Source: Endomicrobiia bacterium (lineage in GTDB: Bacteria > Elusimicrobiota > Endomicrobiia > Endomicrobiales > Endomicrobiaceae). From it: 35,585 bases of DNA. Made by a program: the position numbers and the translations under genes. Location of the stretch: contig WRNH01000014.1 of assembly GCA_009776745.1 (NCBI GenBank), forward strand, positions 1 to 35,585, written 5' to 3'. Shown here piece after piece: positions 24,354-28,694 of the stretch (position 1 is its first letter; the number at the start of each line of letters is the position of its first letter). The notes beneath the pieces were generated by a model that was not told where the DNA came from, ran no database searches, and worked only from the letters and a program-made list of their open reading frames with translations.

Positions 24354-25852
24354 TAATAAAAAAAGATTCGGACGTAATACAAAATTATTTCGAAGATAAT
24401 TCGGGCGTTGCCGGCGCTTACGCCGATTTTGCGGCCGTGGCTGAAAATGAGGAAGATGTCGCAAGCTTTTTGCCGGATATGGCGGCAAAAAAAATTCCCG
24501 TGACTGCTGCCGGCGCTTTGACGGGAAATACCGCTTCAGGGCTTGCTTTCGGCGGGGCAGTATTGTCGCTTGAAAAATTAAATAAGATCGGCGGCATTAA
24601 AAAAATTGACGAAAAAACAGCAGAAATTACCGTTCAGGCCGGCGCGAGAATCCAGGACATAAAAGATAAAGTTTGCGGCGAAGGCTGGATGTATCCTCCC
24701 GACCCGACGGAAAAAAATGCGACGATCGGCGGAAATATCGCAACAAACGCTTCCGGCGGGAGAGGTTTTAAGTTTGGCGTTACAAGGGATTATGTTAAGG
24801 CTGTAAAAATTATTTTTACCGACGGCTCGCAATGCCGCATAAAAAGAGGCGAATATTTTGCCGATGACAAAGGCGAAATTGTCTTTAATACGGATAAAGG
24901 CGTCAAACATATAATACTTCCGAAATACAATCTTCCGAAAATAAAAAATGCCGCGGGTTATTACAATTATCATAATGCCGATTTGACAGATATTTTTATA
25001 GGTTCCGACGGAACTTTAGGCATTACCGTAGAGGCCGTTTTAAAACTTATTCCTCACTTTAAAGAAGCGTTCGGCGGCATAATTTTTTTTGATGACCGCG
25101 CCCGCGCTTATGAATTTGTTAAAAAAGTAAAAGAGACGGCTTCAAGAGGCGGCAAAGATCCGATAAGTCCCATGTCTTTGGAATATTTTGATAAAAACGC
25201 TTTGCTGTTGATCAGGCGGGATTATCCATCTATTGCGGAAAATGCTGAAGCCGGCATTATGTTTGAGCAGGACATTTATGAGAATAATTCCGATATTTTA
25301 ACGGAAAAGTGGATCAATATGATGGAAGAAAGCGGAATTGATACGGAAAATGTCTGGTTTGCGTCTAATTTAAAAGAGTTGGAAGCTTTCAGATCGTTCA
25401 GACACAGAATTCCCGAAAGAGTAAATGAGCGCGTTAAAAAAAATAAAATTCCTAAAGTCGGTACGGATTTTGCCGTTCCGGAAGGGAAACTTGCCGAAAT
25501 TGTTGATTTTTGCGATAAAGAATTTGAAAAAGCAGGTCTTTTTAATCTTACTTTTGGACATATAGGCGAAAATCATCTTCACGCAAATATAATCGCTTCC
25601 AATGAAGAGGAGTATAAAAAAACAAGAGAAATGTACGCAAGAATAGCCCAAAAAGCCGTAGATCTTGGCGGAACCGTATCGGCCGAACACGGCATAGGCA
25701 AGATTAAACACGTATTTCTGGAAAAAATGGTCGGCGAAGAAGGCTTTAAAGAAATGGCAAAATTTAAAAAAAGCCTTGACGCAACAGCCATATTGGGACG
25801 CGGTAATATATTTCCTGAAAAATATTTAGAAGATGAGAAGTTGAAAGGTTGA
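24350..25852 (+). CDS. FAD-binding oxidoreductase (GlcD/D-lactate dehydrogenase family)
   Basis: The 500-residue protein has an N-terminal PCMH-type FAD domain: TAAGALTGNTASGLAFGG, YPPDPTEKNATIGGNIATNA and FIGSDGTLGI. A C-terminal FAD-oxidase domain carries TFGHIGENHLHANI and GGTVSAEHGIGK, the metal/substrate histidine motifs of 2-hydroxyacid dehydrogenases. The likely reaction is oxidation of D-lactate, glycolate or a similar 2-hydroxyacid; the substrate cannot be fixed from sequence. There is no signal peptide. It is coupled to the beta-lactamase-fold gene by an ATGA overlap, an unusual pairing. Its last codons (EKLKG) lie inside a GAAGTTG-type 7-nt repeat that continues past the stop, so the tail was probably created or reshaped by the repeat. 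Confidence 0.9.
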   Translation: MIIKKDSDVIQNYFEDNSGVAGAYADFAAVAENEEDVASFLPDMAAKKIPVTAAGALTGNTASGLAFGGAVLSLEKLNKIGGIKKIDEKTAEITVQAGARIQDIKDKVCGEGWMYPPDPTEKNATIGGNIATNASGGRGFKFGVTRDYVKAVKIIFTDGSQCRIKRGEYFADDKGEIVFNTDKGVKHIILPKYNLPKIKNAAGYYNYHNADLTDIFIGSDGTLGITVEAVLKLIPHFKEAFGGIIFFDDRARAYEFVKKVKETASRGGKDPISPMSLEYFDKNALLLIRRDYPSIAENAEAGIMFEQDIYENNSDILTEKWINMMEESGIDTENVWFASNLKELEAFRSFRHRIPERVNERVKKNKIPKVGTDFAVPEGKLAEIVDFCDKEFEKAGLFNLTFGHIGENHLHANIIASNEEEYKKTREMYARIAQKAVDLGGTVSAEHGIGKIKHVFLEKMVGEEGFKEMAKFKKSLDATAILGRGNIFPEKYLEDEKLKG

Positions 25853-25926
25853 GAAGTTGGGTAAAAGCAAAGGCTTTTTTGTTGTCTTTACTCAGCTTCC
25901 GAACTTCTAACCTTCCCAGCTTTTGT
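25837..25926. repeat. GAAGTTG-type repeat palindrome overlapping the FAD oxidase gene end
   Basis: The left arm GAGAAGTTGAAAGGTTGAG (from about 25842) begins inside the coding sequence and runs to about 25860. The right arm AGCTTCCGAACTTCTAACC (25898 onward) is its inverse with mismatches. The centre holds AAAAGC-aaag-GCTTTT plus TT (25863-25880), which may serve as a weak terminator for the two-gene unit. Confidence 0.65.
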
Positions 25927-25930
25927 CTTT

Positions 25931-25976: not shown

Positions 25977-26207
25977 ATGGGAAATTTTGAAATTTTATCC
26001 ATAAAAGTGAAAAAAACGGCTGAAAGGCTTAAAAAACTTAATGATGAAAATTTAAGGCTTAAAGCTGAAGTTGATTTTTTAAGAAAAGAAAATGAAAATA
26101 GCAGGAAAAAAATCGGAGAATACGCTATACTTAAAGAAAATACGGCGGATGCGGTTACTAAAATCGAAAGAATTCTTAAAAAAATAGATACGGTTAAGGT
26201 ATCATAG
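25977..26207 (+). CDS. Small coiled-coil protein, ZapB-like
   Basis: The 76-residue product is almost all coiled coil (about residues 5-70), rich in Lys, Glu, Leu and Asn, with no cysteine and no membrane segment. The size and coil match ZapB-type Z-ring-associated proteins, but such short coils cannot be assigned by sequence alone. The strongest support is position: it ends 2 bp before zapA, the arrangement known from other bacteria. AGG lies 9 nt upstream of ATG 25977. Confidence 0.75.
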   Translation: MGNFEILSIKVKKTAERLKKLNDENLRLKAEVDFLRKENENSRKKIGEYAILKENTADAVTKIERILKKIDTVKVS

Positions 26208-26209
26208 AT

Positions 26210-26500
26210 ATGGCAACAACCAGAACGAGAATAATGGGAAGAGATATAGATATTAACGTAGATGAACTGGACGAGTTAAGTTTTGCAAGCGTTGTAAGTT
26301 ATGTAAATGATCAATGGCAGGAAGTACAGCGGGATAATTCAAACGTGCCTGACACTCAAAAAATTGCGGCAATGACGGCTGTGAAGATCGCGGCCGAATT
26401 TCTTAAAATTAAAGGTTTGCAAGAAAGTATTTCAGATAATTATGAAAAAAAGATCAAAGATTTAATTAAACTGCTTGATGAAGCAGAGTATTCAAACTGA
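26210..26500 (+). CDS. zapA: Cell division protein ZapA-like
   Basis: A 96-residue protein with the ZapA start pattern TRTRIMGRDIDINV, followed by a helix with YVNDQWQEVQ, then DTQKIAAMTAVKIAAEFLKI and a C-terminal coiled coil. The length is typical. ZapA binds FtsZ and cross-links filaments in the Z-ring. It sits 2 bp after the ZapB-like gene and just upstream of a structured RNA that looks like 6S RNA, a neighbourhood seen around zapA in other phyla. Confidence 0.85.
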   Translation: MATTRTRIMGRDIDINVDELDELSFASVVSYVNDQWQEVQRDNSNVPDTQKIAAMTAVKIAAEFLKIKGLQESISDNYEKKIKDLIKLLDEAEYSN

Positions 26501-26515
26501 AATATTTTAATGTTT

Positions 26516-26676
26516 TCCCTGCAGTGTTGGTGATTGTTTTTAGCGTATTGAATCCTACAGGTCCATTTTAGGAGAACAGCAGTCGAGCGTTTGCTCGTGG
26601 GCTTATGCCACTGTATCTCACTTATTAAAAAGGGCTTTCAATCGCTTTAAACGCACGGCGCTGCGGGGATTTTTTT
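26516..26676 (+). ncRNA. ssrS: Probable 6S RNA
   Basis: No gene fits this stretch, but it folds as one long rod. TCCCTGCAGTG (26516-26526) pairs over 11 bp with CGCTGCGGGGA (26659-26669), directly followed by seven T residues, a natural terminator end. A bubble comes next, then AGCG-ATTGAA (26542-26552) pairs with TTCAATCGCT (26637-26646). Inside, GAGA-ACAG pairs with CTGT-A-TCTC, and the tip has CGAGC-gttt-GCTCG. A closing stem, open bubble and terminal stem is the shape of 6S RNA, which mimics an open promoter and binds RNA polymerase. The place right after zapA and before rarA and ygfA matches known 6S neighbourhoods. At about 155 nt it is somewhat short. It could be another structured RNA. 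Confidence 0.65.
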
Positions 26677-26806
26677 ACGGCAGAGTGGAGTTTGAAGTGT
26701 GGAGTGTGAAGTCAGTGTGTTTTCGCTTTGCGAAAACCTGTTAATTAGATTTCGGCGAAGCCGAAATTCAACAACTCCAAATTCCACACTTCAAACTCCA
26801 AACTTT
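26677..26806. repeat. Composite palindromic element with TGGAGTT/TGAAGTG arms
   Basis: ACGGCAG (26677-26683) follows the 6S RNA T-run. The left arm repeats GTGGAGT/TTGAAGT words at 7-nt steps (26685-26712); the right arm (26773-26806) is the inverted array. The core is the same as at 30278: GTTTTCGC-ttt-GCGAAAAC (26719-26737) and ATTTCGGC-gaa-GCCGAAAT (26749-26767). So a core shared with other loci is here flanked by an unrelated 7-nt word. Confidence 0.85.
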
Positions 26807-26824
26807 GTTTCCAACGGTGTTTAT

Positions 26825-28144
26825 ATGGCTCAAACTGATTTCTTAACAAATGCAGCGGCAGGCAAAAATAAGCCGTTAGCTGCTCGAATGGCCCCTAAAA
26901 GTTTTGATGATTTTGTAGGTCAGGAAAATATAATAGGGGATGAGAAGCTTTTGCGCCGTTCGATTGAAGCAGATAATTTGGGTTCGGTGATTTTTTTCGG
27001 CCCTCCGGGCACCGGTAAAAGCGCTTTGGCAAGGATCATAGCTTCAAAAACAAAGGCTTATTTTGAAGAAGCAAATGCGGTAACAATAGGGATTGCCGAT
27101 ATAAGAAAGATCATTGATCAGGCAAAAGCCAGACTGGAAATTTCAGGCAAAAAAACGATTTTAATGCTGGACGAAATCCACCATTTTAACCGTTCGCAGC
27201 AGGATGCGCTGCTGCCGGATGTGGAAAGAGGCTCGATAACGCTTATCGGGATCACGACGGAAAATCCGTTTTTCTATATCAATGCGGCGATCCTTTCCAG
27301 AAGCATAGTTTTTGAATTTCAGCCGCTTTCAAAAAAAGCCCTTTCAAAAATTATGGAATCGGCTTTAAAGGACAAAGAAAGCGGTCTTGGCAATTACAAA
27401 GTTGAAATGTCGGACGAAGCCAAACAGCACCTGATTTTAAACGCTAACGGAGATGCAAGAAGACTGCTTAATGCGCTGGAAATCGGCGTGCTTTCCACTA
27501 AAGTTGACGGGAAAGGGATCAGAAATTTTGACATTTCCGTGGCGCAGGAATCTATGCAGAAAAGAGCGGTTTTGTATGACCGCTCGGGCGACGCGCACTA
27601 CGATCACATTTCGGCATTCATTAAATCAATGAGGGGAACTGACCCCGACGCTGCGGTTTACTGGATGTCGAAAATGCTTGCTGCCGGGGAAGATCCCAGG
27701 TTTATTGCAAGAAGGATCATAATATGCGCTTCCGAAGATGTCGGAATGGCCGATCCGCGCGCTTTAATGCTTGCGGTATCGGCTTTGAATGCCGTGGAAT
27801 TTGTAGGTATGCCCGAAGCAAGAATAATTTTAGCCCAGGCGGCAATTTACGTTGCCTGCGCCCCGAAATCGAACGCTTCTTATATGGCTGTGGAATCTGC
27901 CTTGAGCGAGGTCAGAAACGGAAAAGTCCGTAATGTTCCCAACCATCTTAAAGACGCGAATCTTGACGGGGAAAAACTCGGGCACGGGCAGGGATACAAA
28001 TATCCGCATAACTACGAAGGTCATTATGTCGAACAGGAATACTGGAGTGATCCGGTAGAGTTTTATAAACCGGCAAATGAAGGTTTTGAGGTAAAAATCC
28101 GTGAACGATTACTTGGAATCAGAAAAAAGAAAAGTAAGATATGA
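26825..28144 (+). CDS. rarA: Replication-associated recombination ATPase RarA (MgsA)
   Basis: A 439-residue AAA+ ATPase of the RarA/WRNIP1 family, which acts at stalled replication forks. It has the family start PLAARMAPKSFDDFVGQENI, Walker A GPPGTGKS (residues 59-66), Walker B ILMLDEIHHF (about 112-121), sensor 1 in LIGITTENPFF and sensor 2 in NGDARRLLNAL. The C-terminal tetramerisation region has GTDPDAAVYWMSKMLAAGED and ends with GYKYPHNYEGHYV. I start at ATG 26825 because homology begins there; upstream codons belong to a repeat element, and the ribosome binding site is weak. Its end overlaps the next gene by 44 nt. Confidence 0.95.
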   Translation: MAQTDFLTNAAAGKNKPLAARMAPKSFDDFVGQENIIGDEKLLRRSIEADNLGSVIFFGPPGTGKSALARIIASKTKAYFEEANAVTIGIADIRKIIDQAKARLEISGKKTILMLDEIHHFNRSQQDALLPDVERGSITLIGITTENPFFYINAAILSRSIVFEFQPLSKKALSKIMESALKDKESGLGNYKVEMSDEAKQHLILNANGDARRLLNALEIGVLSTKVDGKGIRNFDISVAQESMQKRAVLYDRSGDAHYDHISAFIKSMRGTDPDAAVYWMSKMLAAGEDPRFIARRIIICASEDVGMADPRALMLAVSALNAVEFVGMPEARIILAQAAIYVACAPKSNASYMAVESALSEVRNGKVRNVPNHLKDANLDGEKLGHGQGYKYPHNYEGHYVEQEYWSDPVEFYKPANEGFEVKIRERLLGIRKKKSKI

Positions 28145-28694
28145 GTTTTTGAATTTAAGGAATAGAATAGATTCTATTTTGGCTTCGGCGTACAGCAATA
28201 TGATTTTTGCCAGAATTAAGAAACTTCCTGTTTACGAAAAAGCAAAAACCGTCATGTTTTATTTGTCTTACGGTTCTGAAGTCGCTACTGACGCGATGAT
28301 CTCTTCCGCTTTGGAAGAGGATAAGAATGTCATCGTTCCTGCCATTCAAAACCCCGGAGACGGGAAGATGTTTGCAGTCAAGCTTTACAGGCTTGAAGAC
28401 GCATACCAATCAGTGTACGGAATAAGGCAGCCTGAAATAAATCAGGAAGATATTGTGGAAAAAGACGAAATTGATTTAGTTTTTGTTCCGGGAATCGCTT
28501 TTGATTATGAAGGTTTCAGGGTCGGGTACGGAAAAGGTTATTTCGACAGATGGCTGGAAAAAGTGCCGTTTGAAAAATCGATAGGACTTGCTTACGATTT
28601 TCAAGTTACGGATAAAATGCCGACCGGAAAATACGATCTGCCGGTTGGAACTATTATTACGGAAAAAAGAATTATCCAGATCAAAAAAAATTAA
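28101..28694 (+). CDS. ygfA: 5-formyltetrahydrofolate cyclo-ligase
   Basis: This 197-residue enzyme converts 5-formyl-THF to 5,10-methenyl-THF using ATP. The N-terminus has the KRKVRYEFLNLRNRID helix with basic residues typical of the family. The nucleotide/metal site is in FVPGIAFDYEGFRVGYGKGY and FDRWL, and the C-terminus has DLPVGTIITEKRII. Start is GTG 28101 with GAGG upstream, inside the 3' end of rarA (44-nt overlap). Its place downstream of zapA and the 6S-like RNA matches the known zapA-ssrS-ygfA order, with rarA in between. Confidence 0.93.
   Translation: MNDYLESEKRKVRYEFLNLRNRIDSILASAYSNMIFARIKKLPVYEKAKTVMFYLSYGSEVATDAMISSALEEDKNVIVPAIQNPGDGKMFAVKLYRLEDAYQSVYGIRQPEINQEDIVEKDEIDLVFVPGIAFDYEGFRVGYGKGYFDRWLEKVPFEKSIGLAYDFQVTDKMPTGKYDLPVGTIITEKRIIQIKKN

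Follow-up and report, generated by a model that had tools for sequence, protein, structure and literature searches.

The + strand between zapA and rarA in the window analysed here (the whole 35,585-nucleotide stretch, from an Endomicrobiia bacterium) almost certainly encodes a 6S RNA, the small RNA known to mimic an open promoter and thereby restrain RNA polymerase. This is the best explanation of the evidence as a whole, with transcription and binding to RNA polymerase attributed to the RNA from its family. The 6S architecture of closing stem, second stem, central bubble and apical arm is supported by covariation and places 6S RNA firmly in the little-studied phylum Elusimicrobiota; the bubble is partly closed by a further helix. 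We confidently regard the window RNA as a further 6S RNA of the established family, on ordinary grounds. The phylum-wide coevolution of a helix within the bubble is the modestly new element. Feature coordinates are given in Table 1.

Table 1. Features of the 6S RNA locus, in window coordinates
Feature	Position	Strand	Basis
zapA, cell division protein	26210-26500	+	PF05164, 46.8 bits
6S RNA gene (ssrS), about 155-161 nt, 5' end approximate	26516-26676	+	RF00013 match 26513-26673, 40.9 bits; R1 match 26513-26677, 187 bits (window sequence belongs to the R1 training set)
Closing stem P1, 5' arm	26516-26529	+	pairs with 26656-26669
P2 stem adjoining the central bubble, 5' arm AGCG-U-AUUGAA, predicted pRNA template	26542-26552	+	pairs with 26637-26646
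Predicted pRNA 5'-GUAGGAUUCAAUACGCU, start opposite C26558	26542-26558	-	alignment position, GG at 4/5, A just upstream
Central bubble, 5' strand, with conserved UCCUAC and predicted pRNA start	26553-26571	+	RF00013 alignment; C42, C43 and A45 invariant in 38 sequences
Bubble helix, arm 1, AGGUCC	26559-26564	+	coevolves with arm 2
Apical arm, branching into two hairpins	26572-26619	+	helices 3-6 covary
Central bubble, 3' strand	26620-26636	+	RF00013 alignment, aligned bubbles
Bubble helix, arm 2, GGGCUU	26632-26637	+	coevolves with arm 1
P2 stem, 3' arm UUCAAUCGCU (UUCAAU-CGCU)	26637-26646	+	pairs with 26542-26552
Closing stem P1, 3' arm	26656-26669	+	pairs with 26516-26529
T7 tract (exactly seven T) after P1, probable terminator of the 6S gene	26670-26676	+	sequence; T-rich tract after the stem in relatives
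rarA (mgsA), replication-associated AAA+ ATPase	26825-28144	+	PF12002, PF16193
fthC (ygfA), 5-formyltetrahydrofolate cyclo-ligase	28101-28694	+	PF01812, 136.9 bits

Family assignment and conservation of the fold

An E-value scan of the intergenic stretch (401 bases) returned RF00013 (6S) as the single meaningful match (40.9 bits, E 4.9e-7, + strand), aligned over the full length of the model (positions 1-187 of 187), and a whole-genome search with RF00013 found the window RNA (E 6.9e-7) to be the sole copy in the genome. This search had been proposed as a check by the initial annotation, which read the locus as most likely a 6S RNA, divergent enough that standard models may miss it; the identity is borne out by the full-length match, by relatives above the cut-off and by the zapA/rarA/fthC context, and the warning proved apt. 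A scan of the window against Rfam at gathering scores listed nothing: the RNA falls 5.5 bits under the RF00013 gathering score (46.4 bits, a curated cut-off that is an annotation rule and not a biological feature), and standard annotation therefore misses it. RF00013 was run on 60 genomes, comprising that of the window and those of relatives, and gives one full-length match in each of 38, with 24 exceeding the cut-off, so that in these first 60 genomes the gathering score loses 14 of the 38 copies that the model itself detects. A covariance model constructed here from 17 close copies gave matches in 77 of 341 Elusimicrobiota genomes, several of them silent with the Rfam model.

The + strand of the locus folds at -63.7 kcal/mol, compared with a mean of -41.0 (sd 4.0) for 200 dinucleotide-preserving shuffles (z -5.6), none of which folds as well (0/200); the - strand of the same interval folds more weakly (-45.6 kcal/mol, z -3.8). 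The initial annotation had placed a structured RNA here with the correct coordinates, strand and elements, including the tail of seven T and a second matching stem, AGCG-ATTGAA, which is P2. Its closing stem is also present, at a length of 14 consecutive pairs with G-U counted rather than the 11 bp first proposed.

Relatives bear out this fold by covariation. Among 76 Elusimicrobiota copies aligned to the covariance model, an alignment fitted to the structure and hence favouring paired counts, 91.9% of cells are paired, as against 38-46% after a shift of the partners by 1-3 columns, and at least one compensatory double change appears in 34 of 41 pairs; none of 500 shuffles reached any observed measure. 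In the same 76 sequences 96.4% of P1 cells are paired, with double changes in 8 of the 14 pairs, and P2 has double changes at all 10 of its pairs. Even with a structure-fitted alignment, an effect this large, together with the shifted-partner controls, leaves conservation of the fold hardly in doubt. RNAalifold run on a plain MAFFT alignment recovered the closing stem alone, because the second stem is misaligned there, and a covariance-model alignment is therefore needed.

The fold could also belong to a 6S-like RNA with another partner, as with the Ms1 RNA of Actinobacteria, a 6S look-alike whose partner is the polymerase core instead of the holoenzyme (PMC9130861). The partly closed bubble of the predicted free fold (see below) would agree with such a reading, but we consider it highly unlikely given the direct RF00013 match, the conserved pRNA start motif and the 6S-type gene context, as well as the absence of an Ms1-type context. 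For Ms1 models, the comparison extended to the full Rfam scan.

Gene neighbourhood

The position between zapA and rarA, noted in the initial annotation, is confirmed by Pfam matches to both genes, and the order zapA-6S-rarA-fthC(ygfA), a 6S-typical neighbourhood, persists across the phylum. Of 75 other copies surveyed, 65 have enough flanking DNA to look for zapA, which lies immediately upstream in 51 of them, and rarA is at most 600 bases downstream in 58 of 62; some of the zapA misses are likely detection failures, because the gene is short and fast-evolving. One group of genera lacks rarA at the site and has the order zapA-6S-fthC, which is the gene order of E. coli. The named relatives of the window's rarA, 77-93% identical to it, come from Endomicrobium, Parendomicrobium, Endomicrobiellum and another Elusimicrobiota MAG; the Endomicrobium-like source bacterium is presumably of termite-gut origin. 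Lactic acid bacteria and Bacillus are also known to have a rarA gene beside 6S RNA (PMC8414754).

This placement, on the same strand upstream of rarA and with a T tract at the end, would also suit a cis-acting leader, attenuator or riboswitch of rarA instead of a free RNA. Such a leader is disfavoured, to the point of being extremely unlikely, by the several genomes without rarA at the site that keep the RNA between zapA and fthC; in addition, the distance between RNA and rarA varies from about 4 to more than 350 bases, and the RNA matches the 6S model over its full length. There is next to no chance that the locus is a hairpin-forming segment of some palindromic repeat or other mobile element and lacks an RNA function, a reading invited by the repeat directly downstream (26684-26812, dozens of genome copies) and refuted by copy number and conservation, given that the 6S RNA is single copy, occupies a conserved site across the phylum and shows compensatory changes, and that the repeat begins only after the T tract.

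That downstream repeat, about 129 bp between the T tract and rarA, has 54-nt arms that are 74% complementary and more than 40 matches in the genome (68-95% identity), constituting a REP- or MITE-like family. Another repeat, lower in copy number (25838-25930; about 10 further genome matches, 70-85% identity) lies at the end of an oxidase-like gene, before the zapA operon. Directly upstream of zapA, a 75-aa reading frame (25980-26206) without a Pfam match is conserved at that place in most relatives and looks like a ZapB-like coiled-coil protein. At the other side of the locus the first 44 bases of the fthC frame (28101-28144) coincide with the end of rarA, which suggests that rarA, fthC and rny form an operon downstream of 6S RNA.

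Just 15 bases separate the zapA stop codon from the closing stem, and a consensus scan for a sigma-70 promoter upstream of the 6S RNA found none that was convincing. A motif recurring upstream of many copies (TTGAYG-N17-TGAAAT) was rejected: its mean score is close to that of shuffled sequence (8.22 and 7.70, respectively) and it overlaps zapA codons, and therefore no promoter is claimed.

The central bubble, its predicted pRNA and the collapse helix

The internal bubble of the initial annotation exists as a loop, but it is not the 6S central bubble: at approximately 26533-26541 / 26647-26655 it is a variable internal loop of the lower arm. The Rfam alignment identifies AGCG-AUUGAA as P2, the stem that borders the bubble towards the closing stem, and the promoter-mimicking bubble therefore lies inside P2. 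Initiation of the product RNA (pRNA) is predicted around UCCUAC (26553-26558), and by alignment with 6S a pRNA from C26558 would begin 5'-GUAGGAUUCAAUACGC. Verified pRNAs share two hallmarks: positions 4/5 are GG, and the base immediately upstream of the initiation site is an adenine (PMC8414754). The window RNA has this start motif, with a CC that would yield GG at pRNA positions 4/5 and an A upstream. This CC of the 5' bubble strand is, together with the A that precedes the start, invariant in 38 sequences, and the A after C26558 occurs in the window RNA and most relatives; one group of relatives has CCGAUG here, making the upstream base G in those.

Reading the aligned bubbles revealed a helix between the distal portion of the 5' strand and the bases that immediately precede the 3' arm of P2. 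Its letters vary by lineage: AGGUCC/GGGCUU in the window, and elsewhere AAGUUCC/GGGACUU, AAGCAC/GUGCUU, AGCUUCAA/UUGGGGCU and GAGUUCUUU/AAAGGGCUU. A swap test that is independent of aligning on the helix, with one representative for each of 20 clusters at 70% identity, gave a mean of -7.0 kcal/mol for a sequence's own segments and -4.5 for swapped partners, a difference reached in 0 of 20,000 permutations. In a stricter version (strict blocks, all P2 3'-strand bases omitted, dominant clades reduced) the corresponding values were -5.06 and -2.90 kcal/mol, again with 0 of 20,000, and P2, serving as positive control in the swap test, behaved similarly. Under each of two null models preserving both tree and substitution count, the bubble-helix value was reached in 0 of 300 runs; this figure, like those of the swap tests, must be tempered by the relatedness of the clusters, a tree derived from a short RNA and, for the second null, its disregard of substitution bias. 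In one distant copy (L016) the helix is not preserved. For the upper bubble, one swap test detected no pairing and the stricter one a slight surplus of pairing whose energy was close to zero.

The central bubble collapse helix is defined by base pairs between the 3' strand of P2 and the distal portion of the 5' bubble strand. Probing led to its proposal for B. subtilis 6S-1, it was also proposed for A. aeolicus 6S RNA, and mutants showed that it favours release (PMC8876501). The window helix matches it by this defining pairing, and its two arms coevolve. The 76 aligned copies thus supply evolutionary evidence for a helix previously inferred by probing and mutants in Bacillus and from Aquifex, and its role in polymerase release becomes testable in a further lineage.

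Against the textbook open bubble, the predicted free RNA already has much of its bubble paired: five collapse-helix pairs (probabilities 0.98-1.00) form beside an intact P2, with U26637 shared between P2 (0.61) and the collapse helix (0.37). When the P2 5' arm is blocked as it would be by a 9- to 17-nt pRNA, the best predicted fold has the full six-pair collapse helix. With five pairs in the free fold and six when P2 is blocked, these folding predictions would suit a release switch, a helix present constitutively in the ground state, or a single helix that is both. A more specific reading is that Elusimicrobiota have a 6S variant whose bubble is split by a selected helix partly coexisting with P2 in the free RNA, and that polymerase opens this helix on binding, after which it snaps shut as a release switch once pRNA has been synthesized. 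We hold this reading tentatively, as possible and somewhat short of probable; if true, the collapse helix would have evolved as a functional element rather than arising as a by-product when the RNA refolds.

In the mechanism we propose, the folded RNA would resemble an open promoter, with two long helical arms flanking the central bubble, and, as for its family, would bind the housekeeping RNA polymerase holoenzyme and lower transcription under nutrient shortage. Like other 6S RNAs it would be expected to be stable and abundant, with levels rising in stationary phase. On the return of nucleotides, polymerase would start at C26558 and copy the P2 5' arm into a short pRNA, whose synthesis would unwind P2 and free its 3' arm. 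The freed GGGCUU could then pair fully with the bubble AGGUCC as the collapse helix, helping to eject the polymerase.

Distribution and comparison with known 6S RNAs

Within one genus of the window's family (g8), many small genomes (0.2-1.0 Mb) have no 6S match and larger ones do, with completeness often low; 6S RNA may have been lost during genome reduction in endosymbionts. Elsewhere in the class and phylum, five near-complete genomes from other families (G044, G046, G047, G050, G059) gave no 6S match by either model, and in these the RNA is either lost or too divergent. In other phyla, a 6S match occurs at 3 of 20 rarA loci, too few for a covariation test. We found no paper treating 6S RNA in Elusimicrobiota in the literature collection searched.

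The window RNA shares with E. coli-type 6S (SsrS, RF00013) the closing stem, P2, central bubble and apical arm, the flanking zapA upstream and fthC/ygfA downstream and, in several Elusimicrobiota relatives, a UGAGCC-type sequence preceding the pRNA start. It differs in length (about 160 nt here, about 184 nt in E. coli), in the presence of rarA between RNA and fthC in most Elusimicrobiota relatives, and in having a helix between the two bubble strands where E. coli has a 3'-strand hairpin. With B. subtilis 6S-1 and the 6S RNA of lactic acid bacteria it has in common a rarA neighbour (PMC8414754), a predicted pRNA starting with G and a collapse helix, inferred there by probing (PMC8876501). In Bacillus, however, that helix is thought to arise only after pRNA synthesis, whereas here five of its pairs are predicted alongside P2 in the free RNA. 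Going by published descriptions, the 6S RNA of Aquifex aeolicus is similar in being very short (about 160 nt; PMC9130861) and in its reported collapse helix (PMC8876501).
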